Positions 35,289 through 53,140 of a stretch of 64,000 bases of DNA are shown piece after piece (position 1 is the stretch's first letter; each line of letters starts with the position of its first letter). This DNA comes from Sphingomonas donggukensis. GTDB lineage: Bacteria > Pseudomonadota > Alphaproteobacteria > Sphingomonadales > Sphingomonadaceae. The stretch covers positions 2,773,501 to 2,837,500 of the forward strand of contig NZ_CP098401.1 of the NCBI RefSeq assembly GCF_023674425.1, read 5' to 3'. Both the position numbers and the translations under genes were made by a program. The notes under the pieces were generated by a model. The model ran no database searches. It was not told the DNA's origin and worked only from the letters and a program-made list of their open reading frames with translations.

Positions 35289-36158
35289 TCACTTTGCTAA
35301 CCATTTCACCGGAATACGCAGATAGGTCACGCCGTTGGCCTCCGCTTCCTCGAAACGGCCAGCGCGGATGTTGACTTGAATTGACGGCAGCAGGAGCTTG
35401 GGCACCGACAATCCGGCGTCGCGTTGCTCGCGCATCGCGACGAAGTCGTCCTCGCTCACGCCGTCATTAACGTGGACGCTTGCGCGCCGCTGCTCGCCGA
35501 CAGTCGTTTCCCAGGCGAATTCGGTGCGCCCGGGTGCCTTGTAGTCGTGACACAGGAACAGCCGGGTCGCGGCTGGCAGCGACAGGAGGCGGCGGATCGA
35601 ACGGTACAGCGTCCGTGCGTCACCGCCCGGGAAGTCCGCGCGGGCGGTGCCGTAGTCGGGCATGAACAGCGTGTCGCCGACGAAGGCTGCATCGCCGATC
35701 AGATACGCGACGTCGGCAGGGGTGTGGCCGGGAACGTGCAGCACCTCCACCTCCAGCCCGCCGATCATGAACCGATCGCCGTCGTCGAACAGGCGGTCGA
35801 AGTCCGACCCGTCGGTCTTCAGATCGTCCATCGCGAAGACCGGGCGGAAGATTTTCTGCACATCGCGGATGTGGGCGCCGATGCCGATCCACGCGCCCGT
35901 CTTCGCCTTCATGAACGGCGCGGCGGACAGGTGGTCTGCGTGAGCGTGCGTCTCCAGCACCATCTCGATCCGCCAGTCGTGCTCGGCGGCAAAGGCGACG
36001 ATCCGCTCGGCCGAGCGGGTGTCCGCCTCGCCGCTCGCCAGGTCGAAATCGAGCACCGGATCGATGACCGCGGCGACGCGCGTGGCTGGGTCACCGACCA
36101 GATAGCTGATCGTGTTCGTCGGCTCGTCGAAGAACGCCTCGATGAAGGGCTGGGTCAT
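35289..36158 (-). CDS. Persulfide dioxygenase-like MBL-fold protein (ETHE1/Blh type)
   Basis: The 289-aa product is a metallo-beta-lactamase-fold enzyme with THAHADH at 70-76, the HVPGHTPADVAYLIGD segment and a later DTLFMPDYGTARADFPGGDA stretch, all characteristic of ETHE1/Blh persulfide dioxygenases, which oxidise glutathione persulfide to sulfite using one mononuclear iron. It is transcribed divergently from an ArsR repressor with two redox cysteines and lies beside rhodanese and TauE genes. This layout matches the BigR/Blh sulfide-detoxification cluster known from Xylella and Agrobacterium. Confidence 0.87.
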   Translation of the reverse strand: MTQPFIEAFFDEPTNTISYLVGDPATRVAAVIDPVLDFDLASGEADTRSAERIVAFAAEHDWRIEMVLETHAHADHLSAAPFMKAKTGAWIGIGAHIRDVQKIFRPVFAMDDLKTDGSDFDRLFDDGDRFMIGGLEVEVLHVPGHTPADVAYLIGDAAFVGDTLFMPDYGTARADFPGGDARTLYRSIRRLLSLPAATRLFLCHDYKAPGRTEFAWETTVGEQRRASVHVNDGVSEDDFVAMREQRDAGLSVPKLLLPSIQVNIRAGRFEEAEANGVTYLRIPVKWLAK

Positions 36159-36177
36159 GATTTCCTCCGTTAGCTCT

Positions 36178-36209
36178 TGCTAATATATTAGAGAATGCTA
36201 CATAAGCAA
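36178..36209. promoter_or_regulatory. Probable operator of the ArsR/BigR-like repressor
   Basis: CTAATATATTAG (36180-36191) is a perfect 12-bp palindrome in the 68-bp divergent spacer, flanked by wider TTGCT (36178-36182) and AGCAA (36205-36209) arms. An AT-rich palindrome in this position is what BigR/SqrR-type repressors bind. It would control both the dioxygenase gene and the repressor-rhodanese-TauE genes. The local AT-richness also fits promoter elements. Confidence 0.6.
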
Positions 36210-36226
36210 TACCTTATGGAGTAATT

Positions 36227-36544
36227 ATGATGCTCAAGCCGCCGATGGACATGACGACGTTCGAGGCGAAGGCCGGTGCAGTCGCGGATACGCTGAAGGC
36301 GATTGGCAATGCGCGGCGGCTGATGCTGCTGTGCAAGCTGGTCGAGCAAGGCGAAGTGACGGTCAGCGACCTCGCCCGCGACGTCGGGCTGTCGCAGTCG
36401 GCATGCTCGCAGCACCTCGCCAAGATGCGCGACGAGGGGCTCGTCGCCTTTCGGCGGGAGAGCCAGACGCTCTGGTATCGGATCGCCGATCCCCGCGTCG
36501 AGACGCTGCTCGCCACCCTCTACCAGCTCTATTGCAAGGACTAA
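36227..36544 (+). CDS. bigR: ArsR-family persulfide-sensing repressor (BigR/SqrR-like)
   Basis: The 105-aa winged-helix product has the recognition region VSDLARDVGLSQSACSQHLA and the wing RRESQTLWYRI. Cys36 and Cys103 are placed as the redox pair of BigR and SqrR, which form a di- or tetrasulfide and release DNA in the presence of persulfide. A third Cys at 60 lies in the recognition helix, where most relatives have a small hydrophobic residue. The gene leads a plus-strand unit with rhodanese (4 bp gap) and TauE. Confidence 0.88.
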   Translation: MMLKPPMDMTTFEAKAGAVADTLKAIGNARRLMLLCKLVEQGEVTVSDLARDVGLSQSACSQHLAKMRDEGLVAFRRESQTLWYRIADPRVETLLATLYQLYCKD

Positions 36545-36548
36545 TCCG

Positions 36549-37067
36549 ATGACCGTAAACGCCCTTTCGCCTGCCGATACCCGCCTCGCGATCGACAGCG
36601 GCGCGCGCCTGATCGACATCCGCGGCGCCGACGAACATGCGCGCGAGCGCATTCCCGGGGCGACCAACGTGCCGCTCGACCGCATTGCCGACCTGCCGCG
36701 GGACGGGCGTCCCGTCGTGTTCCATTGCCGGTCGGGCATGAGGACCGCCGCCAACGCGGCGCAGTTACGGGCAGTCGTCGGCGACGCGCCGGCGTTCCTG
36801 CTCGACGGCGGGATCGATGCATGGCGGAGCGCCGGCCTGCCAACGATCGCCGATCGCTCCCAGCCCCTGGAAATCATGCGGCAGGTGCAGATCACTGCGG
36901 GCGCGCTGGTGCTGACCGGCGTGCTGCTCGGCCTGTTCGTCGCCCCCGGCTTCTTCGGCCTGTCCGCGTTCGTCGGGGCTGGGCTGATGTTCGCGGGTGT
37001 GACGGGTTGGTGCGGCATGGCCAATCTACTGCGCATCATGCCCTGGAACCGGCGCGCGGCGGCCTGA
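36549..37067 (+). CDS. Rhodanese with C-terminal membrane domain
   Basis: The 172-aa product has a rhodanese domain (about 1-100) with active-site loop C60-RSGMR and a following DUF2892-type segment with two membrane helices (about 112-160; GVLLGLFVAPGFFGLSAFVG and GWCGMANLLRIMPWN). It would carry sulfane sulfur at the inner membrane, passing persulfide sulfur between thiols, thiosulfate and the dioxygenase. It stands between the repressor and the TauE gene. Confidence 0.9.
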   Translation: MTVNALSPADTRLAIDSGARLIDIRGADEHARERIPGATNVPLDRIADLPRDGRPVVFHCRSGMRTAANAAQLRAVVGDAPAFLLDGGIDAWRSAGLPTIADRSQPLEIMRQVQITAGALVLTGVLLGLFVAPGFFGLSAFVGAGLMFAGVTGWCGMANLLRIMPWNRRAAA

Positions 37068-37072
37068 CGATC

Positions 37073-37843
37073 ATGCAGACCGTTCTCGCCCTCGCGTCCG
37101 GCGGGCTCATCGGGCTCGTTCTTGGCCTGGTCGGCGGGGGCGGGTCGATCCTGGCAGTTCCGCTGCTCGTCTATGTCGTCGGTATCGGGTCGCCGCACGC
37201 CGCGATCGGCACGGCGGCGGTGGCGGTCACCGCCAACGCGCTGGCCAGCCTGATCGGACACGCGCGTGCGGGGCGGGTGAAGTGGCGCTGCGCGAGCGTG
37301 TTCGCGCTCGCCGGTGTCGTCGGCGCGGCGCTGGGCGCAGAGCTCGGCAAGGCGGTCGACGGCAAGCGCCTGCTCGCACTGTTCGGCGTGCTGATGATCG
37401 GCGTCGGGCTGTCGATGTTCCGCAAGCGCCGCACGGCGGAGGCTCCGGACGTCCGGCTGACTCGCGACAGTGCCGCGATGTTGTTGCCGCGACTGGTCCC
37501 GATCGGCCTCGGCGTGGGGCTCGCCGCCGGATTCTTCGGGATCGGGGGTGGCTTCCTGATCGTGCCCGGCCTGATCCTGGCGACGGCGATGCCGCTGTCA
37601 ATTGCTATCGGCACGTCGCTGGTCGTCGTGACCGCGCTCGGCCTGACGACGGCATCGTCCTATGCCGTTTCCGGCCTCATCGACTGGCGCATCACAGCGC
37701 TGCTGATCGTAGGTGGCATCCTTGGCACGCTGGGCGGTATCGCGGCCGGTCGGCTGCTCGCCGCGCGCAAGGGCCTGCTCGAGCGGCTGTTCGCCGTCAT
37801 CGTGATCGGCGTCGGTCTCTACGTCGTCGCCTCATCTCTCTGA
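37073..37843 (+). CDS. TauE/SafE family sulfite/sulfonate exporter
   Basis: The 256-aa product has about eight membrane helices and the two repeats of the family: GLIGLVLGLVGGGGSILAVP near the start and GVGLAAGFFGIGGGFLIVPG near residue 145. Such proteins move sulfite, sulfoacetate or related anions across the inner membrane. Here export of sulfite formed by the dioxygenase is the likely role, inferred from context. ATG 37073 follows the rhodanese stop by 5 bp. Confidence 0.9.
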   Translation: MQTVLALASGGLIGLVLGLVGGGGSILAVPLLVYVVGIGSPHAAIGTAAVAVTANALASLIGHARAGRVKWRCASVFALAGVVGAALGAELGKAVDGKRLLALFGVLMIGVGLSMFRKRRTAEAPDVRLTRDSAAMLLPRLVPIGLGVGLAAGFFGIGGGFLIVPGLILATAMPLSIAIGTSLVVVTALGLTTASSYAVSGLIDWRITALLIVGGILGTLGGIAAGRLLAARKGLLERLFAVIVIGVGLYVVASSL

Positions 37844-37872: not shown

Positions 37873-37949
37873 CCCCGGGTAAGAGCCGCGCCAATCGCAA
37901 GGACCCGGTGAAATCCCGGGTGGCTATGCCGGCCGCCAATCCGCCGGAC
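37873..37949 (+). ncRNA. Candidate structured leader, cobalamin-riboswitch-like core
   Basis: ACCCGG (37903-37908) can pair with CCGGGT downstream (37916-37921, loop TGAAATC) or with an identical CCGGGT upstream (37875-37880), two mutually exclusive stems. A further hairpin, CCGGC (37929-37933) with GCCGG (37943-37947), follows. The GGACCCGGTGAAATCC stretch resembles the conserved GGTGAAA core of cobalamin riboswitches, and CGCCAAT could stand for their CGCCACT. An upstream CGGGTTGCC (37852-37860) also fits that pattern. It lies in the 170-bp gap before the SulP gene. Resemblance is partial; a covariance search is required. Confidence 0.35.
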
Positions 37950-38014
37950 AACATCACACATGCAACCAGACTGCGCCGCGGATAGCTGCGTCATGTGCCC
38001 TGATGTGGATTCCC

Positions 38015-39511
38015 ATGACTTTCGATATCGTCTCCTATCGCCGCCAGTGGTTCACCGACGGCGCCGCCGCCCGCCGCGACATCATGGCGGGCATAGTCGT
38101 TGCGCTCGCGCTCATTCCCGAGGCGATCGGCTTCTCGATCATCGCCGGCGTCGATCCGCGCTTCGGCCTTTACGCTTCGGTGGCCATCGCCATCACGATC
38201 TCGCTGATTGGCGGGCGGCCCGGCATGATCTCGGCGGCGACTGCCGCCGTCGCCGTTCTCGTCTTCCCGCTCGTTCACACGCACGGAGTCGAGTATCTGT
38301 TTGCCGCAACGATCCTGATGGGGTTCATCCAGATCATTGCGGGATTGCTTCGTCTGGATCTCGTCATGCAATTCGTATCGCGGTCGGTTATCACCGGCTT
38401 CGTCAATGCGTTGGCCATCCTCATCTTCATGGCGCAGCTGCCCCAGCTCACAAACGTCGGCTGGGAAACCTACGCGATGGTCGCTGGAGGGCTCGCGATC
38501 ATCTATGGCCTGCCTCGCCTCACCAAGGCCGTGCCGTCGCCGCTAGTCGCAATCCTCATACTTAGCGTGATCAGCATTGGCATGGGTTTGGACGTCAATA
38601 CAGTCGGCGACATGGGCAAGCTGCCCGAAGGACTGCCCAGTCTCGCTTTGCTGAACGTGCCGCTTTCGCTCGACACGCTGAGGATAATCCTGCCCTACTC
38701 GCTGACGATGGCGGCGGTCGGCCTGCTCGAATCGCTGCTCACCGCCCAGATCGTCGACGACATGACCGACACCGACAGCGACAAGCGCGTCGAATGTGCG
38801 GGTCAGGGCGGTTCGAATATCATCGCCGCATTCTTCGGCGGCATGGGCGGTTGCGCGATGATCGGCCAGTCGGTCATCAACGTCACTTCCGGCGGGCGGG
38901 GACGCCTATCGACCTTTGTTGCCGGCGCGTTTCTCCTGTTCCTGCTAGCGGTTCTCGGACCATTCGTCGGCAAGGTGCCGATGCCGGCGCTGGTCGCGGT
39001 CATGATCATGGTTTCGATCGGCACGTTCAGCTGGAACTCGATCGTGAATTTGCGCCGTCATCCGCCGACGTCGTCGGTCGTGATGTTGACGACCGTGGTG
39101 GTGGTGGTCGCGACCCATGACCTTTCGTTGGGCGTCCTCGCCGGCGTCCTCCTCTCCGGCATCTTCTTCGCCGGCAAGGTTCAGCAGATGTTTGCCGTCG
39201 AGCGCTTTGCGACGCCGGATAGCGAGCGGGCAACCTATCGCGTGACCGGTGAAATTTTCTTCGCGTCGGGCGATCGTTTCACGCGGGCGTTTCAGATTGA
39301 GGAAAAAGCCCGCGAAATTGTCATCGATGTTACCGACGCCCATTTCTGGGATATCTCAGGTGTGGGCGCGCTCGATAAGATTGTTGCTCGTCTGCGGCGC
39401 GATGGCCGAAGTGTCGAAGTGGCTGGTTACAACCGCGCCAGTGCCGACCTCGTCGATCGGTTCGCGCTGCACGACAAAACAGGGGTCGAAATGGGTCTGG
39501 CACCGCACTGA
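38015..39511 (+). CDS. SulP family anion transporter with STAS domain
   Basis: The product is 498 aa from ATG 38015 (ATG 38003 would add four residues; neither has a good ribosome site). It has about 12 membrane helices with the SulP features DIMAGIVVALALIPEAIGFS near residue 18 and GGMGGCAMIGQSVINVTSGG near 288. A C-terminal cytoplasmic STAS domain follows (about 395-495; FFASGDRFTRAF, IDVTDAHFWDISGVGALDKI). SulP proteins carry sulfate, bicarbonate or other anions. Beside a sulfide-oxidation module sulfate is an attractive substrate, but bicarbonate is equally possible. GC content is lower than in the flagellar block. Confidence 0.88.
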   Translation: MTFDIVSYRRQWFTDGAAARRDIMAGIVVALALIPEAIGFSIIAGVDPRFGLYASVAIAITISLIGGRPGMISAATAAVAVLVFPLVHTHGVEYLFAATILMGFIQIIAGLLRLDLVMQFVSRSVITGFVNALAILIFMAQLPQLTNVGWETYAMVAGGLAIIYGLPRLTKAVPSPLVAILILSVISIGMGLDVNTVGDMGKLPEGLPSLALLNVPLSLDTLRIILPYSLTMAAVGLLESLLTAQIVDDMTDTDSDKRVECAGQGGSNIIAAFFGGMGGCAMIGQSVINVTSGGRGRLSTFVAGAFLLFLLAVLGPFVGKVPMPALVAVMIMVSIGTFSWNSIVNLRRHPPTSSVVMLTTVVVVVATHDLSLGVLAGVLLSGIFFAGKVQQMFAVERFATPDSERATYRVTGEIFFASGDRFTRAFQIEEKAREIVIDVTDAHFWDISGVGALDKIVARLRRDGRSVEVAGYNRASADLVDRFALHDKTGVEMGLAPH

Positions 39512-39559: not shown

Positions 39560-41245
39560 TCAGTAGAGGCCGTAGCGCAGGACGAGCAGACCGGAGAGGG
39601 TGACCACCATGATCGCAACGAGCGGCAGGCCGGTGCGGGTGTAATCCTTGAACCTGTAGTCGCCGGCCGACATGATCAGCATGTTGGTCTGATAGTCGAC
39701 CGGCGTCGCGTAGCAAAGGTTGCAGCCGAACAGCACGGCAAGGACCAGCGGCTCGACGGGGATCCCCAATTGTTGCCCGAGGCTGAAGGCGATCGGTGTG
39801 CCCACCGCCGCCGCCGTGGTGTTCGACGCGAAATTGGTAAGGATTGTAACGAAGAGCATCACCGCAGCCAGAACACCCGCCGGCGGGAGGAACTGCAGTC
39901 CCAGCGCGATCAACTCGCTCAGCCAACTAGCTGCCCCACTTTCTAACACAATCCGACCGATCGCGATGGGCACGAGGCCGATGCTGGCGGGGAGGACCGC
40001 GGCGGCCATAATGGCAAGCGCGAGCGATGCCTTGGCAGTGCGCGGCAGTTCCTTCGCGCCGTCGAGAACAAACATGTTCTCGGCTAGCGACATTCGCTCG
40101 ATACTGCCGAGTGACCCGGCGACCAGCAGGATATCGCCCTCGTCAAAAGGACTTTCGACCGCGGTCTCGACCACCGGCTGCGCGATCCACGGGCGATGCG
40201 CGCGATGCACGCCAAGGATCGCGACGTTATACAGTTCGGCGACGTTCGCGGATGCCACCCCTTTTCCGACCAGTCCCGAATCCTTCGTCACCGCAAGTTC
40301 CGCGACGGTCAGGTCCTCCCCCGTCCTTGAATAGCCGCTGTGCAGTCGATCCATCAGCCAGGCGGGGGCCGCCGTGGCGCCAAGAATCCGCATTGTCTCC
40401 TCCAGGGCATCATGCGATGCCCGCACCAGCATCTGGTCGCCCATCGCGGCGTCGCCGAGGATTTCGACATCGGCCGGCAGTCGGGCGGCCATTTGATCGC
40501 GCGGCAGGTTACGGGCGAACGAATTCTCACCCAGCCGCAGCATCGCCGTGAAACGGCGTGGTTCGTGCCCCGCCTCGACCGAATTGTCGGGTAGCAGACG
40601 CGGCATAACCAGCCAGATGAACGGCAACGCCACGAGCGCCGCCAGCAACACGATCGGCGTGAAGTGGAACACCGACATCGGCGGTAGGCCGAGGTCGCCG
40701 GCGATCGATACGACCAGCAGGTTGGTCGAGGTGCCGATCGTCGTCGACATGCCGCCGATCAGCACCGCACTGTTCACCGGGATCAGCGTGCGTGACGCGG
40801 GCAATCCGCCGTTCGCCGCGATGGCTGCCATCACCGGCAACATCAGGACGAGCACCGGCGTGTCGTTGACCATCATGCTCATGCCGAACGCCAGCAGCAG
40901 TGTGACGAGCAAGCCGATCTGTCGATTGAACTGCCAAACCCGCGTCAGCAACCGTGCTGCCGGTTCAAGTGCGCCGGTGGTGACCAGCCCGCGTCCCAGC
41001 ACCATCAGCGCACAGATCGTGATGAGCGCGTAATGGCCGAAACCCTCGAACGCTAGCTTGAGCCCATCGGTGGGAGCCTGGCCTGGCAGTGGGAACCAGT
41101 AGAGCCCGAGCGCAATCGCGCTGATCGTCAGGAGCGAAATGATCTCCACCCGCGCGCGGCCCGATACGAAGCCGTAGAACATCGCCGCGGTCAACAGCAT
41201 CGCGCCGATGGCGTGGGCGGACGGGGCGGTGAGCAGGCGGCTCAA
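39560..41245 (-). CDS. SLC13/DASS-type permease with RCK_C domain
   Basis: The 561-aa product has two membrane halves, each with an SNT/STNL-type substrate motif (GGMSTTIGTSTNLLVVSI near 165 and TNFASNTTAAAVGTPI near 490), and a central cytoplasmic region with a TrkA-C-like domain (about 285-385; GEDLTVAELAVTKDSGLVGK). Related permeases take up sulfate or dicarboxylates with sodium. It is the last gene of a six-gene minus-strand operon. The start is TTG 41245, which overlaps the ClC stop as TTGA behind GGGA; no ATG of this frame is closer. Confidence 0.85.
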   Translation of the reverse strand: MSRLLTAPSAHAIGAMLLTAAMFYGFVSGRARVEIISLLTISAIALGLYWFPLPGQAPTDGLKLAFEGFGHYALITICALMVLGRGLVTTGALEPAARLLTRVWQFNRQIGLLVTLLLAFGMSMMVNDTPVLVLMLPVMAAIAANGGLPASRTLIPVNSAVLIGGMSTTIGTSTNLLVVSIAGDLGLPPMSVFHFTPIVLLAALVALPFIWLVMPRLLPDNSVEAGHEPRRFTAMLRLGENSFARNLPRDQMAARLPADVEILGDAAMGDQMLVRASHDALEETMRILGATAAPAWLMDRLHSGYSRTGEDLTVAELAVTKDSGLVGKGVASANVAELYNVAILGVHRAHRPWIAQPVVETAVESPFDEGDILLVAGSLGSIERMSLAENMFVLDGAKELPRTAKASLALAIMAAAVLPASIGLVPIAIGRIVLESGAASWLSELIALGLQFLPPAGVLAAVMLFVTILTNFASNTTAAAVGTPIAFSLGQQLGIPVEPLVLAVLFGCNLCYATPVDYQTNMLIMSAGDYRFKDYTRTGLPLVAIMVVTLSGLLVLRYGLY

Positions 41246-42600
41246 TTCCCATCGCTCCGCGCTGAGCCGATAGGAGCATCAGGGGCGTCGCTTTCAGGCT
41301 CGCGTGGATCCCCAGGCGGCAGGAAAGCCTGCGAGAGCGCGTGGTAGAGCCGCTCCTTCGAGACTGCCTGCGCCACGACGTCGGCAATCAATGCCGACGC
41401 GAGCAGCGGCATCATCAAACCGCGGCTGGCGGTCGTCTCGGAAATGATGATGACTGCCGTCAGCGGTGCGCGGACGACGCCGGTGAAATAGGCGACCATG
41501 CCGAGCAGCACGATCGCGCCGGCGGGATAGGTCGGAAACAGCCAGCGCAGCATATCGCCGACGCCCGCGCCGACCGCCAGCGAAGGCGCGAAGATGCCGC
41601 CCGGCATGCCCGAAACCGCCGTTGCCAGGGTCGTCGCCAGCTTCGCGATCCCGAACCAGTGCGGCACGTCGGCACCCGTGATGATCGCTCGCGCAGCCCC
41701 GTACCCGGTTCCCCAGGTCAGGCCGCTACCGACGCCGATGATTGCCACGATGAGACCGAGCGATCCCGCGAAGAGCGCAGGCCGTGCGCGCGCCCGCGCG
41801 ACTGCCGCCCAGCGCGTCCTGCCGGTCGCCAGTACAGCGCGCGAAAAGAACGCGCCCATCAACCCGCCCAGCACCCCTGCCACAGGAGCAGCCAGCATCG
41901 TCTCGCGAACCGACAGAGTCTGACGCATGACCCCGAAGTAGATATAGTCGCCCGACAGCCCCAGGCTGGTCATGCCGGCGATCAGCACCGCGGTCATGAC
42001 CAGCAGCGTCATGCGCTGCTCGTAGGCGGCGGCCAGTTCCTCGATCGCAAATGCCACCCCGGCGAGCGGCGTGTTGAAGGCGCCGGCAACGCCGGCCGCT
42101 CCACCGGCGATGAACACCGACGCCCTCAGCGGGATCGCCATCAGCCGATGGGCATAGCCCATGATCGCGGCAGCGACCTGTACGGTTGGTCCCTCCCGGC
42201 CAGTCGATGCCCCGACCAGCAAAGTGCCAATCGTCAGGACGAGCTTGACGATGACTGTCCGCGCCGAGACAAGCGCGCCCATCGCGTGATCCGGATCGCG
42301 GGTTGCCGCCATGACCTGCGGAATCCCCGATCCCCGCGCTGCCGGGGCGAAACGCGCGGTCAGCCAAGCGATGGCGGCATATCCCAACGGCGTGACGATC
42401 AGCGGCGCCCACCACCACCGCGCGACCAGTGCGATGAAGCGCTCTCCCGCCCAGTCGGCGAGATGCGCGAAGGCAAGCGCGACCAGACCGATCGTCACCG
42501 CCCCACCGAGGATCGCCACGCGGCGCCGCCACACCGGTGCCGTCGGTCCGTGCTGGCGCAGCAGGTCGCGCGCCTGCTCTGGCAATCGCGGCCCCATCAT
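41242..42600 (-). CDS. ClC-family chloride channel/antiporter
   Basis: The 452-aa product has the ClC ion-binding motifs GSGIP (near 100), GREGPTVQV with the gating glutamate (near 145), and GGIFAPSLAVGAGVGDML (near 340). The gating Glu suggests Cl-/H+ exchange as in E. coli ClcA. No C-terminal CBS domains are present. It starts with two ATGs behind GGAGGG. Start and stop both overlap the neighbouring genes by 4 bp. Confidence 0.94.
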   Translation of the reverse strand: MMGPRLPEQARDLLRQHGPTAPVWRRRVAILGGAVTIGLVALAFAHLADWAGERFIALVARWWWAPLIVTPLGYAAIAWLTARFAPAARGSGIPQVMAATRDPDHAMGALVSARTVIVKLVLTIGTLLVGASTGREGPTVQVAAAIMGYAHRLMAIPLRASVFIAGGAAGVAGAFNTPLAGVAFAIEELAAAYEQRMTLLVMTAVLIAGMTSLGLSGDYIYFGVMRQTLSVRETMLAAPVAGVLGGLMGAFFSRAVLATGRTRWAAVARARARPALFAGSLGLIVAIIGVGSGLTWGTGYGAARAIITGADVPHWFGIAKLATTLATAVSGMPGGIFAPSLAVGAGVGDMLRWLFPTYPAGAIVLLGMVAYFTGVVRAPLTAVIIISETTASRGLMMPLLASALIADVVAQAVSKERLYHALSQAFLPPGDPREPESDAPDAPIGSARSDGN

Positions 42601-43805
42601 CCCTCCGCGGGTGCGCCGACTGCCGTGGCGACAAGGCATATCAGCCCGACCGCGACGAAGCCGATCCGTTGCGCGGTGGTCCCCTTTCCGTCCTTGATCG
42701 AGACGATCAGCGCCAGCGCGCACTGCAGCCCATAGAATAGCGCGAAGGCGCGCGACGACAGCGCAACGACCTCGAAGGGGTCGGTCAGCCACACGACGAT
42801 GATGGCGAGCGCCCCCGCCAGCGCGAAGGCGAGCGGCACGCTGATCTTGCGGCGCGACACTTCGTTTACCAGTCCACCCGATCCGATCGAGTCGGCGACG
42901 GCCGCGCTCAGCTGGCTCGACACCGCACCGGCAAGGACGAATATCCCCAGCGCCGGCGCGATCAGCTCCATGATGTCGAGGATGCCGGCCACGCCCTCGG
43001 TCGCGGCGGCGCGGCTGAGGAACGGCGTCAGCAACGCGATGAAGGCAAGGTAGATCGCTGACGAGATCCACTGCGCATGGCGCATCGTGCGGACCCGCAA
43101 TTCGGTCGGGTAGGCGTGGCCCAGATAGCGCGACGTCTCGAACCCCTGCACCGTGATGAGCAGGCCGAGCAGCATCGGCACGCTGGCGAAGGAAAGCTTG
43201 AGCGGCGGCAGCGGATCGCCTGCGCCGGTCATGGCCCAGGCAATGCCCAGCGCGGCGAGCAGGCCTGCGATGATCCCGATCTTGATCGAGACGGTGCCAT
43301 GCGCGAGATGCTCGACCTTTCGCAGGTTGCCGCCGAGCGCCAGCAGCGTCATCAGCACGATCAAGACGGTGACGATGATGTTGGCTGCCAGCGGCTGCGA
43401 CGCGGGATCGATCGCGATCGGCTTCAGCGAGAACTCGGCCAGCAGCTTGAGATAATAGGCGACCGATACGGCATAGGCGAGGGCCAGCACCCCCTGTGTG
43501 ACCCGCGCGAGCCAAGCGACCGGATCGTTGAATCGCGCCGCGGCCAGGTGCGGCTCGACATGGACGATGTTGAACCGGATCACCCAGCCGGCGGCATAGG
43601 CGATCGCCAGCAGCAGGGCCATCGCGCCCAGCGCGGCGCCACCGAATTCGCGCGCGAGCAGCGGCCCACATATCAGGAAGCCCGATCCGATGATCGAGGC
43701 GAGCGGAGTCACCGTCGCCCGCCAGCCGTCCGATCGCGCGAACCTGCCGAACGTCAGCGCCGCCGCGACGACGACGGCGACGACCAGAGCAATGGTGACG
43801 ATCAT
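42597..43805 (-). CDS. APC-superfamily (Nramp-like) membrane transporter, substrate unknown
   Basis: The 402-aa product has about 11 membrane helices. The N-terminal stretch TVTPLASIIGSGFLICGPLL resembles the unwound first helix of LeuT-fold (APC/Nramp) transporters, and LITVQGFETSRYLG near 220 resembles the helix-6 region. The metal-binding DPGN and MPH motifs of true Nramp proteins are absent, so manganese transport is not supported. ATG 43805 follows GGGAGG. The gene overlaps DUF2254 upstream and ClC downstream by 4 bp each. I cannot name the substrate. Confidence 0.6.
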   Translation of the reverse strand: MIVTIALVVAVVVAAALTFGRFARSDGWRATVTPLASIIGSGFLICGPLLAREFGGAALGAMALLLAIAYAAGWVIRFNIVHVEPHLAAARFNDPVAWLARVTQGVLALAYAVSVAYYLKLLAEFSLKPIAIDPASQPLAANIIVTVLIVLMTLLALGGNLRKVEHLAHGTVSIKIGIIAGLLAALGIAWAMTGAGDPLPPLKLSFASVPMLLGLLITVQGFETSRYLGHAYPTELRVRTMRHAQWISSAIYLAFIALLTPFLSRAAATEGVAGILDIMELIAPALGIFVLAGAVSSQLSAAVADSIGSGGLVNEVSRRKISVPLAFALAGALAIIVVWLTDPFEVVALSSRAFALFYGLQCALALIVSIKDGKGTTAQRIGFVAVGLICLVATAVGAPAEG

Positions 43806-45211
43806 GCGGTTCCTCCCAACCAGGCATTGCCGTCGCGGACGCGACGCTTGTAATCCGGTTCCGCAAGCGCACGGAGCAGGTCGTCGGCGCGCGATAGCAC
43901 GGCATCGCGGCAGGCTCCGTCTAGCGAACCGTCCGCAAGCGCACGGAAATCGCCGGCGTGGCGCGCCAGCGTGGCGATCCGCCCCGGATCGTCGCAGCTG
44001 AGTGCGACGTCGCCCAGCGCGTTCAGGAAGCGCTTCCCGGCAATCATGTCGGCGCTGGCATATTGCGCCAATGCGCCGAAAGCGCGATCGATGAAGCCGG
44101 CGAAGGTCATCGGATGTGCGATCACACGCAGCACTCCGTCCTCGTCGGCGCGCAACCGCGACGGCAGGTCGCGCCGGGCGAGGTCCGCCATCGCGGCCCC
44201 TAGCCAGTCGAGACAGCTGTTGGCGGTGAACGGGTCGTTGACGCCGGGCGACAGCGCCCGGGCAGCGATCTCGACCAGTTCGTCGATCAGGAAGCGCAAA
44301 TCCTGCAGCGCGGTGCGCCGCGATCCGACCGCGAACGCGCCGCGCAGGGCTTTGACGGTATCTTCGTCGCAGCGTTCGGCGGGCCACGCCTCCAGCAGCA
44401 CGCTGCCCTTGTGCGCAAAATCCCCCGACTGATACTGGAGGCGAAGGATGAGGTCGTGGTCACGCGCGGCGTCCAGCAGGGTGCTTTCGTCGATCAGCTG
44501 GATATAGCCGGTATGCTTGGCGCGGACGGGGGCTCGGCGCTCGTATTCGGTGCGGCCGACATCCGCGCGAAAGGCGGTCGGCACGCGCGGGCCGTCAGTC
44601 CCTTCGTCGAGAGGAACGCCCACGAACACGGGAAAGCGCAGGTCGATCTCTTCGATGAGCCGATCGCCGATGCGCTCGATCACATTGTTGATGTGAATCC
44701 GCATCGGCACGTGGTGGATGAAGAAGATCAGCACCGCGATCGAGCAGAGGACAAGGATCAGCGCCACGAGCAGCGCGAGCTGCGGCACGAACGCCGGTGT
44801 CCCCGCTCCGCTCTCGCCGGCCGAGCGGATCGTGCGCAGGACGATCAGCGAATAGACGAAGGTGGCGATGAATGTGCCAAGCGTCACCTGGTTGCCGCGA
44901 TCGGACATGAAGTTGCTGAGCAGCCGCGGGCCGTATTGTCCGGAGGCATAGACCACCGCAGCGATCGTCACCGAGAAGGTCGTGCCGGCGACACCGATCA
45001 TCGAGCCGCCGATCGACGACAACAGGCTTCGCGCGCCATCCGGCCGGGCGGCATAGAGCCAGGGCAGTCCGTCCATCCAGGTCGAGCCGGCGTGGCTGTC
45101 GATATAGACCATCGCCAACGCCAGCAGCAGCGCGGCCATCGCCATCACCGTCGGCACGAACCAGTAGCTTTCGCGCAGGTCGTTCGACAGGCGCAGCAGG
45201 CGGGCTTTCAC
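43802..45211 (-). CDS. DUF2254 membrane protein
   Basis: The 469-aa product has four membrane helices (about 17-38, 65-90, 108-125, 145-165) and a long cytoplasmic or periplasmic C-terminal part. The conserved stretches TTFSVTIAAVVYASGQYGPR and SPGVNDPFTANSCLDWLGAA identify DUF2254, a family without an established function. The start is GTG 45211, overlapping the CPA1 stop as GTGA. Being coupled to an antiporter and ClC suggests a role in ion or pH homeostasis. Confidence 0.88.
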   Translation of the reverse strand: MKARLLRLSNDLRESYWFVPTVMAMAALLLALAMVYIDSHAGSTWMDGLPWLYAARPDGARSLLSSIGGSMIGVAGTTFSVTIAAVVYASGQYGPRLLSNFMSDRGNQVTLGTFIATFVYSLIVLRTIRSAGESGAGTPAFVPQLALLVALILVLCSIAVLIFFIHHVPMRIHINNVIERIGDRLIEEIDLRFPVFVGVPLDEGTDGPRVPTAFRADVGRTEYERRAPVRAKHTGYIQLIDESTLLDAARDHDLILRLQYQSGDFAHKGSVLLEAWPAERCDEDTVKALRGAFAVGSRRTALQDLRFLIDELVEIAARALSPGVNDPFTANSCLDWLGAAMADLARRDLPSRLRADEDGVLRVIAHPMTFAGFIDRAFGALAQYASADMIAGKRFLNALGDVALSCDDPGRIATLARHAGDFRALADGSLDGACRDAVLSRADDLLRALAEPDYKRRVRDGNAWLGGTA

Positions 45212-46485
45212 GTGTCGATCTCCGCCTCGGTCGTGTTCAGTCGCTGCAGCACCCGCTTGATCGTGCCGCCCTGCACGATCACCGAGAACAGGACGACGAC
45301 ATAGGTCGCCGCCAGGATGACCGAACGCGCCGGACCGTCCGGCAGACCCAGCGCCAGCGCGATCGATATGCCGCCGCGCAGACCGCCCCAGATCAGCGTC
45401 ACCGGCGCGACCAAGCCGTAGCGATGCGTGGGCCGGATCGCCCTGAGCGGAAGCAGCACTGACAGCGCGCGTGCAGCGAGCGCCAGCGGGATCGCCGCCA
45501 CGCCCAGCACCACCAGCCTGAGGTCGCCAGGGATCGTCACCACCTCGAGCCCGATCAGCAGGAACAGCACGGTGTTCAAAATGTCGTCGATCAGGTCCCA
45601 GAACTTGTGCAGATAGTCGCGCGTCGTGGCGCTCATCGCGTGGGCGACGCCGGCGTTGCCAATGATGAGGCCCGCAACCGCCATCGCGACCGGGCCGCTG
45701 GCGTGCAATGGCCGCGCGATCGCGTAGCCCCCCATCACGACCGCGAGGCTGATGAGCACTTCGACCTTGTAGTCGTCGATCGAGCGCATCATCCGGAACG
45801 CGATCCAGCCGATGACGAGGCCCAGCACCACGCCGCCCCCTGCCTCCACGGCGAACAGCTCGGCGGCATGGCCGACGGAAAAGGCTTGCCCCGACAGCGC
45901 CGACGCCAGCAGGATCGTGAAGATGACCACGCCGACGCCGTCGTTGAACAGGCTTTCGCCGGCGACCGTCGCCTCCAGGGTCGGCGAAACCACCGCCCGT
46001 TTGAGCACGCCCATCACCGACACCGGATCAGTCGGGCTGATAAGCGCGCCGAAGACGAAGCACCAGATCGGCGGGAGTTCGAAGCCGACCGCCCGCGCAA
46101 GCAGCAGGAACCCGCCGCCGACCAGTGCGGTCGACAGCGCCACGCCGATCGTGCTCAGCACGATGATTGGCCAGCGTCCGCGCTGGAGCTCGTGCCAGTC
46201 GACATGGAGCGCGCCTGCAAACAACAGGAACGACAGCATCCCGTCCATTAGCGTCGTATGAAAATCGATTCCCTCGATGAACCGCACGATGTCGTTCGAG
46301 AAGTCGGCCCCCGGCAGGACGCGATCGATCGCAACGACGAGCAGCGACGCGATCGCCCCCATCACAGTCAGCCCGATCGACGACGGCAGCTTCAGGAAGC
46401 GATAGTTGACGTAACCGAGCACGGCGGCAAGCGCGATCAGGATCGCCGCTGCGTCGAACGGCGTGAGCGCGAGACCGCCGATCAC
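45208..46485 (-). CDS. CPA1 family Na+/H+ antiporter
   Basis: The 425-aa product has about 12 membrane helices with the CPA1 signatures GALISPTDPVSVMGVLKRA and VAGESLFNDGVGVVIFTILL, including the ion-binding Asp of the FNDG motif. It lacks the long hydrophilic tail of NhaP or NHE proteins, ending NTTEAEIDT. I take GTG 46485 (overlap GTGA with the upstream stop) as start; the open frame upstream is a shadow. It should exchange Na+ or K+ for protons across the inner membrane. Confidence 0.93.
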   Translation of the reverse strand: MIGGLALTPFDAAAILIALAAVLGYVNYRFLKLPSSIGLTVMGAIASLLVVAIDRVLPGADFSNDIVRFIEGIDFHTTLMDGMLSFLLFAGALHVDWHELQRGRWPIIVLSTIGVALSTALVGGGFLLLARAVGFELPPIWCFVFGALISPTDPVSVMGVLKRAVVSPTLEATVAGESLFNDGVGVVIFTILLASALSGQAFSVGHAAELFAVEAGGGVVLGLVIGWIAFRMMRSIDDYKVEVLISLAVVMGGYAIARPLHASGPVAMAVAGLIIGNAGVAHAMSATTRDYLHKFWDLIDDILNTVLFLLIGLEVVTIPGDLRLVVLGVAAIPLALAARALSVLLPLRAIRPTHRYGLVAPVTLIWGGLRGGISIALALGLPDGPARSVILAATYVVVLFSVIVQGGTIKRVLQRLNTTEAEIDT

Positions 46486-48047
46486 TGAGCGACCCCGATC
46501 GTCAGCGTGAAGCGCTGTCCAGCGGCCGGTGCCCCGACCGCCGCGATGCTCTGGGTCGCGAGCACGGCGGCGATGGCCTGCGCGCGCCGCTGTGTCAGGC
46601 TCAAGCGCCGTGGCGTGTCGCCCGCCGGCAGGCCGGGCACCGCGAGCGCGGCCACGTTCCATCGCCGCGCGGCCCAGGCCGAGGTCAGCACCGCGGCTCG
46701 TCCCGCCGCATCCAGCGTGTCGGCATTGTCGGCGAAGGCGATTTCGGGGAGCGGCCCCTGCGGTGGCACGATCGCCACGCTCCAGCCGTCAGCCTCCGCA
46801 GCAGCGCGGGCTTCCAGCGTGCGGTAGGTGGCGATCGTCGCGCCGGGCAGCGGGACGGCCGCCGCGGTTGCCCTGCGGTGGTCGCGATCGATCGTCACGT
46901 CGTCGGCGGAAACTCCGGTGATGAGCCCGATCATGCGAGCCAGCGCAGTCATGCGCTGCGCCTCGATCTCGGGCGCGGCTCCCGCCTGGCGCAACTCCTC
47001 GCGCTGCGCTTCGAGCGCGTCGGCCCCGGCTTCCAGCATGATCTGGTCGATATCGAGCCGCACGGGCCTGCCGAGCGATTGCTCGATTGCGGCCTGGAGG
47101 GTTGCGGTCTTCTGCATTCGCGCGCGCGGCGCGATCACCACGGACCGAACCGTGATCGGATCGCGGTCGAACGCGACCTCGAGCTGCGTCACGCGTGCAT
47201 CGTCACCGAACCGCGCATTGAGCAGCGAGCGCACCTGCGACACTGTCAGCGCCTCGCGCGCGATGCGGTTGAGCGCCAGTCCCAGCGGCACCGCCATCAC
47301 CGCGAACACCAGCAGCAGCAGGACAGTTTGCGTCCAGCTCTGTCGCGTCGAGAGATGGTGTCCGAACCCATAGTAGCGCGCCATCACCGTCGCCGAGAGC
47401 GCAATGGTGATGAAGTTGGTGACGAACAGGGCCAGTGCGCCGCCGAGCACCGGCAGGTTTCCGGTGGCACAGCCATAGCCGACGACGGCAAGCGGCGGCA
47501 TCAGCGCGGTCGCGATCGCGACGCCGACGATCGTCTCGCCCCGCCCGCGAATGATCGCGAAGCTGCCCGCCAGCGCCGCGAACAGCGCAACGCCGAGGTC
47601 GAACAGGTTCGGCCGCGTCCGCGCGACGATCTCCGCGGTCGGTGCCTGGAGCGGCGAGACGGTGACGATCAGCGCGGTAAAGGCAATCGCCACGGCGGAC
47701 CCGACGGCTAGTGCGAAGAGCGACCGGCGCATCTCGGCGAAATCGAACAGCGCGAGGCTGAATCCGAAGCCGAGGATCGGACTCATCAGCGGCGAGATCA
47801 ACATCGCGCCGATCACGACGGCCGGGGACGACAACAAGAGCCCCAGCACCGCGATGCCCGCCGACATCATCGTCATGAAGGCGTAGCGCGGCGACCAACC
47901 GCTTTCCGCGGCGATCCGCGCAACGACGGCCTCGTGGTCGACCGGTGCGACGACCCGCCGCCGCCACCACCGGTACAGCGTAAAGCCGCGCAGGCGATCG
48001 AAAACCCGGTCGCTACCTGCCTGCATCGTGCCAGTCGCTCCCGCCAT
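46482..48047 (-). CDS. DUF389 membrane protein with C-terminal extension
   Basis: Residues about 55-250 contain the DUF389 core: FMTMMSAGIAVLGLLLSSPA, VIGAMLISPLMSPILGFGFS and TALMPPLAVVGYGCATGN, with five or six membrane helices. A C-terminal extension of about 250 residues follows (about 265-521) whose end (LSLTQRRAQAIAAVLATQSI) recalls OmpA-like or BON-like periplasmic regions, but I cannot assign it. ATG 48047 is chosen because GGTGGA precedes it; GTG codons up to 48083 are in frame. It is the first gene of the six-gene operon. DUF389 has no established biochemical role. Confidence 0.85.
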   Translation of the reverse strand: MAGATGTMQAGSDRVFDRLRGFTLYRWWRRRVVAPVDHEAVVARIAAESGWSPRYAFMTMMSAGIAVLGLLLSSPAVVIGAMLISPLMSPILGFGFSLALFDFAEMRRSLFALAVGSAVAIAFTALIVTVSPLQAPTAEIVARTRPNLFDLGVALFAALAGSFAIIRGRGETIVGVAIATALMPPLAVVGYGCATGNLPVLGGALALFVTNFITIALSATVMARYYGFGHHLSTRQSWTQTVLLLLVFAVMAVPLGLALNRIAREALTVSQVRSLLNARFGDDARVTQLEVAFDRDPITVRSVVIAPRARMQKTATLQAAIEQSLGRPVRLDIDQIMLEAGADALEAQREELRQAGAAPEIEAQRMTALARMIGLITGVSADDVTIDRDHRRATAAAVPLPGATIATYRTLEARAAAEADGWSVAIVPPQGPLPEIAFADNADTLDAAGRAAVLTSAWAARRWNVAALAVPGLPAGDTPRRLSLTQRRAQAIAAVLATQSIAAVGAPAAGQRFTLTIGVAQ

Positions 48048-48227
48048 GCCATTCCACCCGTGCACAATCACCAGATCAAGCACATTTAGGCTGGCCAGCC
48101 GATCGTGTCTGCCTCGACGGCTCGAACGGCGGGAACTTCAGTAAATGATCCACGCGCTTGGATAGGCAAGTATGCCGCTATAACGTGCGGTCTGTCACCC
48201 CGATTTGTCGACGTACAGCTCTCACTG

Positions 48228-48248
48228 TTCTGTATAGCGAATACAGAA
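48228..48248. promoter_or_regulatory. Perfect dyad, possible operator of the six-gene operon
   Basis: TTCTGTAT (48228-48235) and ATACAGAA (48241-48248) form a perfect 8-bp inverted repeat around AGCGA. It lies about 180 bp upstream of the DUF389 start and 72 bp from the end of a small minus-strand gene. No regulator can be named. The rest of 48048-48319 shows no convincing gene. Confidence 0.4.
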
Positions 48249-48319
48249 GAGCCTCGCTTTTCTGCCGTTTTCAAGGAATCGCGCCCAGCCGTAGATTCCG
48301 AACGACGGCATAGATCAGC

Positions 48320-48520
48320 TCAGGCCTCTCGACGATCGATGCTACGCTTGGCGAACTCCGCCGACCTGCTCTTTCCCTCAAGTTCAATCAGCCTATTGGT
48401 CGCAACAAGCGGCTGAAACGTTTTATGTCCTTCGCTCGCTCTCACCGCCGCAATGACTTGTGCGAATGGATTGCTATGATCGCTTGAAGGCTTGCGTAGC
48501 TGTTTCTTCTTCCTCGGCAT
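48320..48520 (-). CDS. Small basic hypothetical protein
   Basis: The 66-aa product starts MPRKKKQLRKPSSDHSNPFA and is Lys/Arg rich throughout, with no recognised domain. GGGAAC lies about 9 bp before the ATG. It would be co-directional with the six-gene operon, but the spacer of about 270 bp contains a dyad. Its basic N-terminus could bind nucleic acid. It may be spurious. Confidence 0.45.
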   Translation of the reverse strand: MPRKKKQLRKPSSDHSNPFAQVIAAVRASEGHKTFQPLVATNRLIELEGKSRSAEFAKRSIDRREA

Positions 48521-48600
48521 GAACTGGTGTTCCCGCTTTATCTTCTGCCAATCGCCTAAATTGGGTGTGCGATGGCTCCGCCTCTTGAAACGGAGGCTAT

Positions 48601-48750
48601 ATGGACGACGGTAAAGACATCGATAGTGAGTTGCCGAGCGACAAGGCGCGCGAGGGTAGCGTCAATGAGCGAGTGATCAATGTAGCTGGACGTGCGCGCG
48701 CAATTCAAAAGCTCCGTGCACGATTCGAAAAGAAGCCTGATCGCCAGTAA
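48601..48750 (+). CDS. 49-aa hypothetical protein with strong ribosome site
   Basis: ATG 48601 follows GGAGG at ideal spacing and reads MDDGKDIDSELPSDKAREGS to a stop at 48750. The first half is acidic and the second half basic (RARAIQKLRARFEKKPDRQ), suggesting a helical small protein. A good intrinsic terminator lies 30 bp downstream, so this may be a complete single-gene unit. No family recognised. Confidence 0.6.
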   Translation: MDDGKDIDSELPSDKAREGSVNERVINVAGRARAIQKLRARFEKKPDRQ

Positions 48751-48779
48751 CGGCGCGACAAATCGTTATAGCCCGTGAG

Positions 48780-48810
48780 AACCCCAGCCGTCTGCGACGG
48801 CCGGGGTTTT
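48780..48810 (+). terminator. Intrinsic terminator
   Basis: AACCCCAGCCGTC pairs with GACGGCCGGGGTT (48780-48792 with 48796-48808, one mismatch), with loop TGC and a T run to 48810. It ends the small gene at 48601-48750 and isolates it from the ParB-like gene. Confidence 0.85.
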
Positions 48811-48880
48811 CGCGTTATCTTCTACCAGCCGCCACTTCGCACATGCCTAACGACGAGGTCCTCACCACCCGGAGGATCAT

Positions 48881-50011
48881 ATGACCGACACAGAAAATCG
48901 CGAGATCGGTGCGCACGCCCACCTGTTGGAAAGCGCTTGGATCTATCGCGCAGACCCAGCGGACTGCGATCTGCATTGGGCCAACACGCGCGACCGCGAT
49001 CGCCTCGACGACCATATCGAAAGCCTTAAGACGTCGATCCTGACGAGTGGTCAATTGTCGCCCGCGACCACGGTCGAGGCGCCGGACAACCCCGATCGTT
49101 ACTTGCTCCTGACCGGTGGCTGCCGCGCCGAAGCGGTCCGTCGCGCCCGCAAAGAAGGTCATAACATCGATCTCGTACTGCTGATCGTGTCTGCCACCGA
49201 CGACGTCGCGGCCGAGATCGTATTCGCCGAGCAGGCGAAGACCAAGAGCTGGTCGGCCCACGAATATGCCCTGCACCTCGATAAGCTGTGTGATCAGTTC
49301 GGGTCGAACAAGCAGGTCGCGACCAGGATCGGCCTGAATGTGAGCAACATCGGTCGCAACCGCAACGTAACCGCGCTGCCCGCTGCCGTTCTCAATATCG
49401 TAGAGGATCGTCACGAAATTTCAGCCAGCGCCGCTACTGATTTCATGCGCGCATGGCGCGGTGAGGGTAGGGCCGTCCTCGAAGACCACCTCCGCGAGCT
49501 CGCCCGCCTCGAGGACAGGCCCGCCGCCGCCTGGCTCGTCGACAGTTGCCGCGAGGCGATTGCGCTCAGTATCGATCCGCCGCCATCCAATGTCGTTCAT
49601 GTCGCTGAATTCGTCGCAGCGGATCCAGGCGCGGATGATGAGGTCGATGCGGACATGGATGCCGCGGTCTTCATGTCGCCACCAAACGAGATGTTGGGAG
49701 ATATCCCGTCATCGACGTCGACGAACCCGCTCGCAGCCAGGCGCGCAGAAATGCGAATCGAGAACGGCGAGCGGGAGGTCGAGATCGTACTGCCCGACGA
49801 CCAAGTGGTCGGTCGCGCGAAGAAGGTCGCCGGTGGCGCGATGATCATGACCATCGATGCCCCAGATCAGCATCCGCTTAACGAGATCGGCGGCAATCCT
49901 CGACGCGCTGCGGCGCCTGTACATCCAGTGACCCCACGGGGGTTGCGCGCGCACCCCCCCTTCTCTGCCGACTGGCAGAAAACCCACAACAGAGAGAAGT
50001 CAGGTGATTAG
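48881..50011 (+). CDS. ParB-like partition/nuclease-family protein
   Basis: The 376-aa product has a ParB/Srx-type N-terminal domain (about 25-120; RLDDHIESLKTSILTSGQLS and LLTGGCRAEAVRRARKEGH) and a KorB-like helix-turn-helix (about 140-170; QVATRIGLNVSNIGRNRNVT). The remaining half is poorly conserved and acidic, then Pro/Arg rich. GGAGG precedes ATG 48881. No parA gene accompanies it, so it is unlikely to be a full partition system. It may regulate transfer or stability of the element that also carries the serine recombinase. Confidence 0.82.
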   Translation: MTDTENREIGAHAHLLESAWIYRADPADCDLHWANTRDRDRLDDHIESLKTSILTSGQLSPATTVEAPDNPDRYLLLTGGCRAEAVRRARKEGHNIDLVLLIVSATDDVAAEIVFAEQAKTKSWSAHEYALHLDKLCDQFGSNKQVATRIGLNVSNIGRNRNVTALPAAVLNIVEDRHEISASAATDFMRAWRGEGRAVLEDHLRELARLEDRPAAAWLVDSCREAIALSIDPPPSNVVHVAEFVAADPGADDEVDADMDAAVFMSPPNEMLGDIPSSTSTNPLAARRAEMRIENGEREVEIVLPDDQVVGRAKKVAGGAMIMTIDAPDQHPLNEIGGNPRRAAAPVHPVTPRGLRAHPPFSADWQKTHNREKSGD

Positions 50012-51474: not shown

Positions 51475-53046
51475 ATGACCGCCACCACCCCGCAGCGTGC
51501 CTTCGGCTACGTCCGTGTTTCCAGTGAAGAGGAAGGCGGCGGCCAGAATGCGAGCATTGCCGCTCAGCGCGCGGCAATCGAAGCGGCTGCCGCGCAGGAG
51601 GGCGTCGAACTCGTGAAGGTGTTCGAGGAACCGGATGTCTCCGGACGAAAGCTTCATCGCAAGCAGTTCGATCGGATGGTCACGCTGGCGACCGCAGCCG
51701 AGCGGCCGGTCGATATCATCTACGTGTTCCGCCTCGACCGCTATGCCCGCAATCTCTTCACTCATGTCGTAACGGATCAGAAGCTGGAGGCCGCAGGCGT
51801 CCGGCTCATCTCACTGACCGAGCGCTTCAGCGATGATGCCAGCGGTCGACTGCTGCGCAACTTCATTGCACTGATCAACGAGAAATACTCGATCGACGCG
51901 GCAGCGCATACGCGCAAGAATCGGCGAGAGAATGCCAGCGCCGGCTACTTCAACGGCGGCCGCGTTCCCTATGGTTATGAAGCGCAAACCGTCGCGGTTT
52001 TCGGGAAGAAGGAACGCAAGCAACTCTTCGTGCACGAGGCTGAAGCTAAGGTCGTCCAATCGATCTTCAGTCTGGCGCTGCAAGGCGTCGATGGTGAGCG
52101 CATGGGCACTCGCGCGATCTCAGAATACCTGAAGGCGCAAGGACATCGGATGCGCGGCAGCCTGTTCCACGATAGCTCGGTGGACGGCATTCTGACCCGA
52201 TCGCACTATCGAGGCTTCCACGTCGATCGAACGGCGGACGAGCACGGTCATCCCGCCGAGATCACTGTGGCCTGTCCCCAGTTGGTCGATCCCGATATTG
52301 TCGATCGCGTTGCAGCACTTCGGGCGTCCACGGCGCCGCGCGTCACTCCGCCGCGCACCACTAGCTCCAAAACCCTGTTGAAAAAAGTGGGCCAATGTGG
52401 CGCGCCGACGTGCGGCTCGGGGCTTACGATCAGAACCGGCAAGTCCGGACAGTATGGCGATTATATCTGCAACTCCAAGGCGACGCGCGGCGCAAAAAGC
52501 TGTGGCACCAGAGCAATCCGCCAAGACGCGCTTGACGGTATCGTAATCGATACGCTGCTTGAACGCGTGCTCGAGCCCGAACGCTTGAAACAGCTTCTCG
52601 TGGCGGTTCTCGAACGCTCGGATGCCGCCGACGAACGACGTCGCGCGGACCTGCATCGCGTGACCGCCGAACACGGCGCGACTCAGCGCCGACTGCGCAA
52701 TCTTCTCGAGATGGTCGAGACCGGACTGATCAGCCCGCGCGATCCCACGCTTGCTGGTCGGTTGGCGGAGCTTCGTGAGGCCCTGGACCAGATGAATGCG
52801 ACTCGTCGCAGTATCGAGGCGCAGTCGGCGCGTGGCGCACTGCGCATCAACGAGGCGACGGTTAAAAAGTGCGGGAAGCTGATCGCCGATCGCGTTCGCT
52901 ACGACAGCCCGGCGCTCCGGCAAGCTTATGTCGACAAGGTGGTCGTCACCAACGACAGCATTACAATTACCGGTCGCAAGGCAGCCCTTGAAGCCGCCAT
53001 CCTACACGGCAACCGCAGAGGCTCGCGCTGCGGTGCCCAGTTTTGA
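51475..53046 (+). CDS. Large serine recombinase (integrase)
   Basis: The 523-aa product has the resolvase catalytic domain with nucleophile Ser16 (GYVRVSSEEE), VSGRKLHRKQFDRM and the FRLDRYARN arginine motif. A recombinase domain follows (about 155-290), then a zinc ribbon (CGAPTCGSGL with CNSKATRGAKSCG, about 310-345) and a coiled-coil (about 385-450). This is the architecture of phage and mobile-element integrases. AGGAAAG precedes ATG 51475. The stop lies 8 bp from the 3' end of tRNA-Leu, the probable attachment site. Confidence 0.95.
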   Translation: MTATTPQRAFGYVRVSSEEEGGGQNASIAAQRAAIEAAAAQEGVELVKVFEEPDVSGRKLHRKQFDRMVTLATAAERPVDIIYVFRLDRYARNLFTHVVTDQKLEAAGVRLISLTERFSDDASGRLLRNFIALINEKYSIDAAAHTRKNRRENASAGYFNGGRVPYGYEAQTVAVFGKKERKQLFVHEAEAKVVQSIFSLALQGVDGERMGTRAISEYLKAQGHRMRGSLFHDSSVDGILTRSHYRGFHVDRTADEHGHPAEITVACPQLVDPDIVDRVAALRASTAPRVTPPRTTSSKTLLKKVGQCGAPTCGSGLTIRTGKSGQYGDYICNSKATRGAKSCGTRAIRQDALDGIVIDTLLERVLEPERLKQLLVAVLERSDAADERRRADLHRVTAEHGATQRRLRNLLEMVETGLISPRDPTLAGRLAELREALDQMNATRRSIEAQSARGALRINEATVKKCGKLIADRVRYDSPALRQAYVDKVVVTNDSITITGRKAALEAAILHGNRRGSRCGAQF

Positions 53047-53053
53047 CCGGAAA

Positions 53054-53140
53054 TGGTGCCCAGAAGAGGACTCGAACCTCCACGCCCTTGCGAGCGCCAG
53101 CACCTGAAGCTGGTGCGTCTACCAATTCCGCCATCTGGGC
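53054..53140 (-). tRNA. tRNA-Leu (anticodon CAG)
   Basis: The minus strand reads GCCCAGATGGCGGAATTGGT at the 5' end and ends CTTCTGGGCACCA. The 7-bp acceptor stem (GCCCAGA with TCTGGGC), anticodon arm CCAGC-TTCAGGT-GCTGG with CAG, a long variable arm, the GTTCGAGTC T-loop and an encoded CCA give 87 nt. The class II structure confirms leucine. The gene is the right boundary of the putative integrated element. Confidence 0.97.

Follow-up and report, generated by a model that had tools for sequence, protein, structure and literature searches.

A translationally coupled six-gene membrane operon of Sphingomonas donggukensis as one assortment of a modular gene set, probably for Na+/Li+-H+-anion homeostasis

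Six genes for membrane proteins, aligned on the minus strand between positions 48047 and 39560 of a 64,000-nucleotide stretch of Sphingomonas donggukensis DNA (hereafter the window, part of a 2.9-Mb single-contig genome), are joined to each other by five start/stop overlaps of 4 bp. On balance, the locus appears to be one assortment of a mobile and modular gene set of sphingomonads for Na+/Li+-H+-anion homeostasis, organized as a translationally coupled operon and led by a riboswitch in relatives. In several relatives the genes lie behind an RNA switch that senses lithium or sodium, which suggests for the operon a protective role against pH stress and alkali-metal salts. An RNA sensor class of known ligand would then connect two widespread DUF families and a transporter family without a Pfam model with alkali-metal homeostasis, and by this link the function of DUF389, DUF2254 and the orphan transporter family becomes testable. 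The open-access literature searched gave neither a name nor a description of this gene set as a system, in agreement with the first-pass annotation, which had recognized no system known by name.

The six proteins of the operon

Five of the six gene assignments made in the first-pass annotation were backed by Pfam. The first gene (46482..48047, minus strand) encodes a DUF389 membrane protein (PF04087, 2.7e-39), whose start at 48047 was set by homology, a GTG upstream at 48083 being a possible alternative. Its C-terminus gave weak profile matches to YfiB, YiaD and FopA1 (E 0.03-0.5), and Foldseek returned YfiB/PAL with a probability of 0.99-1.0 but with E-values of only 0.03-0.09, on a model with a low-confidence transmembrane part. 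The Pfam OmpA model matched 8 of 26 DUF389 orthologs, with a best E-value of only 0.011. In OmpA-like peptidoglycan-binding domains, the Asp of a GHTD-type motif and an Arg bind diaminopimelate. In the alignment of the 26 orthologs, the GHTD-type motif is absent and VPGLP stands in its place, while the Arg of RRA is retained. We regard this C-terminus as a putative divergent OmpA-like domain. Weak Foldseek matches of DUF389 to ZnT transporters were disregarded because the transmembrane part of the AlphaFold model (pLDDT about 45) is unusable.

The second gene (45208..46485, minus strand) encodes a CPA1 Na+/H+ antiporter, in which both the Na_H_Exchanger domain (PF00999, 9.5e-65) and the ND motif (GESLFND) are present, the score against TIGR00831 being below the cutoff of that model. 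The third (43802..45211, minus strand) encodes a DUF2254 membrane protein (PF10011, 8.1e-123), for which no credible PDB relative was found by sequence. The fifth (41242..42600, minus strand) encodes a ClC protein (Voltage_CLC, PF00654, 3.1e-75). Its translation carries the central Ser (GSGIP), the gating Glu (GREGPT) and the internal proton Glu (AIEEL), and from these residues the protein is predicted to be of the Cl-/H+ exchanger type. The last gene (39560..41245, minus strand) encodes an SLC13/CitMHS permease (PF03600, 2.9e-48) with an RCK_C (TrkA_C) domain (PF02080, 6.9e-8) inserted between its two halves.

The product of the fourth gene (42597..43805, minus strand) had been called an APC-like permease. 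No credible Pfam, NCBIfam or PDB match was obtained for it by sequence, nor could it be placed by sequence in any known APC family. Its AlphaFold2 model, however, is confident (pLDDT 87.2, pTM 0.88) and was matched by Foldseek to b0,+AT (SLC7), SLC12, ApcT, NRAMP and KimA (probability 1.00, E about 1e-7 to 1e-5, TM-score up to 0.77). The helices are interrupted near residues 39-41 and 220-233, in keeping with the broken TM1 and TM6 of the APC/LeuT fold. The APC designation therefore holds for the fold and not as a Pfam family match; with no sequence relative and a confident APC-type model, the protein is taken as an APC-fold transporter of an unmodelled family (hereafter APC).

The CPA1, ClC and SLC13 proteins share Pfam membership with relatives known as single genes (NhaP-type CPA1, ClcA-type ClC, and SLC13/DASS permeases with RCK_C), and the catalytic motifs of the CPA1 and ClC relatives are also present in the operon. 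In contrast to these relatives, they are encoded here in one coupled operon together with DUF389, DUF2254 and the orphan APC-fold protein, and the operon proteins do not reach the NCBIfam equivalog cut-offs of the single-gene families.

Overlapping junctions

The ends and starts of successive reading frames were confirmed to lie at 46482/46485, 45208/45211, 43802/43805, 42597/42600 and 41242/41245, with the overlap letters GTGA, GTGA, ATGA, ATGA and TTGA as first reported. As a background, the window has 39 further same-strand junctions, of which 8 are 4-bp overlaps, as are 82 of 421 in related loci; this rate of about one in five (19%) is estimated from the window and related loci only. At this rate, five overlaps in succession have a probability of about 3.6e-4 per run, and the arrangement is uncommon but not remarkable genome-wide: unusual as it is, about one such run would be expected per genome.

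Stronger evidence than the run itself is the conservation of the overlap at three of the junctions. With the window counted, it is kept at the junctions DUF389-CPA1 (15/18 loci), CPA1-DUF2254 (8/10) and DUF2254-APC (13/16), and not at APC-ClC (4/8) and ClC-SLC13 (1/3). Several of the joins created by reshuffling are also 4-bp overlaps, as observed for DUF389-DUF2254 without CPA1 (L008 and L012), NhaA-DUF389 (L008) and APC-SLC13 (L021, L034 and L035). The uniform coupling had been read as a sign of fixed stoichiometry. This reading finds no support, since the overlap is conserved at just three of five junctions, the content and order of the genes vary widely, and CPA1, ClC, SLC13 or DUF2254 is often absent.

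Conservation and reshuffling of the gene set

A total of 54 loci carrying the APC protein, most of them from sphingomonads, were fetched for comparison. All six genes are present in identical order in Sphingomonas sp. A2-49 (L019), with 82-92% identity, and five of the six in L002; the block DUF389-CPA1-DUF2254-APC is contiguous in L003, L006, L007, L010, L013 (in which the DUF2254 frame is broken), L014 (Novosphingobium capsulatum) and L019. The gene set is thus conserved outside the strain, the point on which the first-pass annotation had staked its proposal. Across the 54 loci, on both chromosomes and plasmids, the operon genes are shuffled with those for NhaA, MscS, SulP, a TrkA_N potassium channel, BrkB and AI-2E. 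Plasmid copies occur, for instance, in Sphingomonas insulae, Sphingobium sp. TKS and Polymorphobacter, where the fourth gene is annotated as a hypothetical protein. A glycoside hydrolase family 97 gene, an odd enzyme for an ion-transport locus, lies between the SLC13 and potassium channel genes in L006 (1367-3292), L010 (1431-3290) and L105 (792-2723).

Among 121 congeneric genomes, the APC gene was present in 16 and is accessory. Linked pairs in the same genomes numbered 10 for APC-DUF389 (0.12 expected), 9 for APC-DUF2254 (0.08), 8 for APC-CPA1 (0.06), 10 for CPA1-DUF2254 (0.07) and 12 for ClC-DUF389 (0.25). For well-sampled pairs the linkage exceeds chance by a factor of about 30 to more than 100, the expectation being that of random placement in a 3.9-Mb genome, uncorrected for the relatedness of the genomes. 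A separate DUF389 (about 46-48% identical) adjoins ClC in nine congeneric genomes (G148, G151, G172, G193, G203, G224, G233, G234 and G179), and this pair is independent of the operon.

The varying order and content, the accessory distribution, the plasmid copies and the position of the operon near a serine recombinase and tRNA-Leu would also be expected if independently useful transporter genes had gathered and been reshuffled on plasmids and stress islands, sharing transcription but no joint mechanism. We hold such accretion to be an unlikely, though not negligible, account of the locus: three junctions retain exact 4-bp overlaps far above the background rate, the gene pool is almost wholly devoted to ion transport, related clusters have one riboswitch class in common, and two pairs of genes diverge in step, as follows.

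Pairwise divergence of APC is best correlated with that of DUF389 (r 0.81-0.90), and the divergence of DUF2254 with that of CPA1 (0.77-0.97, the lower value being obtained after three distant loci were dropped). Other pairs among these four genes are mostly more weakly correlated (0.20-0.69), with DUF389-CPA1 reaching 0.75-0.79 in two subsets. These values suggest two partner pairs, APC with DUF389 and CPA1 with DUF2254, though they do not prove that the partners interact. More speculatively, DUF389 and DUF2254 might each serve one transporter as a dedicated subunit, in the role of regulator or gate: DUF389 for the orphan APC-fold transporter and DUF2254 for CPA1. The two pairs would then be cassettes that can be exchanged, linked through 4-bp overlaps and controlled by riboswitches for alkali metals. 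We offer this reading tentatively and consider it rather unlikely; if true, it would give both DUF families their first function.

Among the loci, the transporter cassettes are swapped with the translational coupling retained. The transmissible locus of stress tolerance (tLST) is likewise a mobile stress island that includes a cation antiporter. Chaperones and proteases (Hsp20, ClpK and FtsH) form the basis of tLST, whereas none of these three was met among the genes identified as recurrent in the operon loci.

Most of the distant APC relatives outside the sphingomonad lineage stand alone among metabolic genes. When their context was searched for the substrate of the fourth gene product, the neighbours were unrelated metabolic genes without pattern, with the exception of hydrogenase operons on Alteromonas plasmids. 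These surroundings count against the homeostasis model. The relative on Alteromonas macleodii plasmids (L110:4938-6161, 38% identity) lies within a NiFe hydrogenase operon and is possibly a metal or ion transporter.

An nhaA-I riboswitch in related loci

An nhaA-I RNA scoring above the Rfam gathering threshold was detected upstream of the genes, on the operon strand, in L002, L006, L007, L008, L010, L014, L019 and the plasmid locus L105, with scores of 47.8-56.1 bits (cut-off 37). In L007 and L014 the RNA directly precedes DUF389, with no NhaA between, and both RNAs have CAGGCU where the consensus is CAGGUU. In L019 the RNA (4475-4533) lies ahead of a single open reading frame of 894 aa (4637-7321) with both NhaA and DUF389 domains; because it is seen in a single genome, this fusion may be a sequencing artefact.

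Experiments have established that RNAs of the nhaA-I motif act as Li+-I riboswitches (White et al. 2022, PMC9646797). The main text of that report deals mainly with nhaA and describes associations of Li+ riboswitches with other genes as rare; the gene set described here is a larger association. Like riboswitch-nhaA units, the operon relatives have an RNA of this family upstream, whether or not NhaA is present, and Na+/Li+-H+ antiport belongs to the set. They differ from such units in that the RNA is followed by a multi-transporter operon or by a fusion of NhaA with DUF389, and the copy in the window is without the RNA. Just 3 of the 30 nhaA-I RNAs of the genus adjoin the operon gene set (G214, G208 and G217, some of which may be the same strains as fetched loci), a proportion that speaks against the homeostasis model.

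If the operon serves Na+/Li+-H+-anion homeostasis, CPA1, together with NhaA where present, would expel Na+/Li+ in exchange for H+, and ClC would exchange Cl- for H+ while another anion would move through the SLC13/RCK permease, by which charge and pH would be balanced. The APC-fold protein may move a small solute or ion, and DUF389 and DUF2254 may be membrane partners with an accessory or regulatory role, the former for the APC transporter and the latter for CPA1. In relatives, rising Li+ (or Na+) would turn the operon on through the riboswitch.

A salt/acid or pH-homeostasis unit had been proposed at first. The nhaA-I RNA in relatives and the recurrent NhaA, MscS and potassium-channel neighbours favour a role in ion and pH homeostasis, and the sequence evidence points to Na+/Li+; acid as the specific signal is left unsupported. 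A unit for resistance to acid or weak acid, built around the ClC exchanger and an APC-fold antiporter in the manner of amino-acid-dependent acid resistance systems, is nevertheless conceivable from the company of exchanger-type ClC and an APC-fold transporter, and ClC is also paired with DUF389 elsewhere in the genus. Cooperation of ClC with amino-acid antiporters has been described for known acid resistance systems (PMC10394335). We consider an acid unit highly improbable: ClC is absent from most clusters, no decarboxylase was met among the genes identified as recurrent in them, and the recurrent leader RNA is of the Li+-sensing class, Li+ toxicity being reported to matter at high pH (PMC9646797).

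The 5' region and surroundings of the operon in the window

The 5' region of the operon in the window (48048..48880, minus strand) shares no homology with the upstream regions of relatives, the similarity ending near the start of DUF389. No nhaA-I RNA precedes DUF389 even at a permissive Rfam threshold, none scores above the cut-off anywhere in the genome, and no remnant of NhaA was detected in the upstream DNA; the one NhaA gene of the genome is located away from the operon. The absence of both riboswitch and adjoining NhaA stands against the homeostasis model for this copy, which, with its different 5' region, must be under another signal. Control by the general stress response was tried as a candidate and rejected, since 1 of 93 module transcription units has the EcfG-type motif (GGAAC-N16/17-CGTT) upstream, against 2 of 349 other units.

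Convergent to the operon lies a gene for a SulP-STAS anion transporter (38003..39511, plus strand), assigned by Pfam; a SulP gene likewise accompanies the module in L018, L020 and the plasmid locus L106. The gene in the window is preceded by a sul1 RNA (37898..37953, plus strand; Rfam RF03058, 74.1 bits against a gathering score of 36.2), a candidate riboswitch for which no ligand was found in the literature searched, and the same RNA lies ahead of the module-adjacent SulP in L018, L020 and L106. Beyond the SulP gene, genes for MBL-fold, ArsR, rhodanese and TauE/SafE proteins (35289-37843) show about 81% DNA identity to Sphingomonas plasmids and are probably a separate mobile sulfur-related unit.

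With the SulP gene and its sul1 RNA and the TauE/rhodanese/MBL set adjoining the operon, and with SulP ahead of DUF389 in L020 and L106, the whole might be a unit for sulfate or another oxyanion, in which SLC13/RCK, SulP, TauE/SafE, rhodanese and MBL (35-41 kb) would deal with sulfur anions and the cation genes would keep the charge balanced. This is very unlikely. The SulP gene and the TauE set form convergent or separate units and are found without the operon in relatives, most module loci are without both of them, and the riboswitch that leads the operon is, the SulP unit excepted, nhaA-I and not sul1.

On the other side of the operon, a large serine recombinase (51475-53046, plus strand) abuts tRNA-Leu(CAG) (53054-53140, minus strand). 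A homologous recombinase is located in the same chromosomal neighbourhood in two relatives and not in five others, and the DNA beyond differs from the window in each case. The site 51475-53140 is a probable integration hot spot beside the operon. A search for att repeats of the tRNA-Leu 3' end gave none and the left boundary is undefined; with no flanking repeat, the operon region is likely part of an island, though not a bounded one. Between operon and recombinase, a GC-poor stretch encodes a ParB-like protein (48881-50011; TIGR00180, 4.5e-13, below the cut-off), possibly a plasmid or island remnant.
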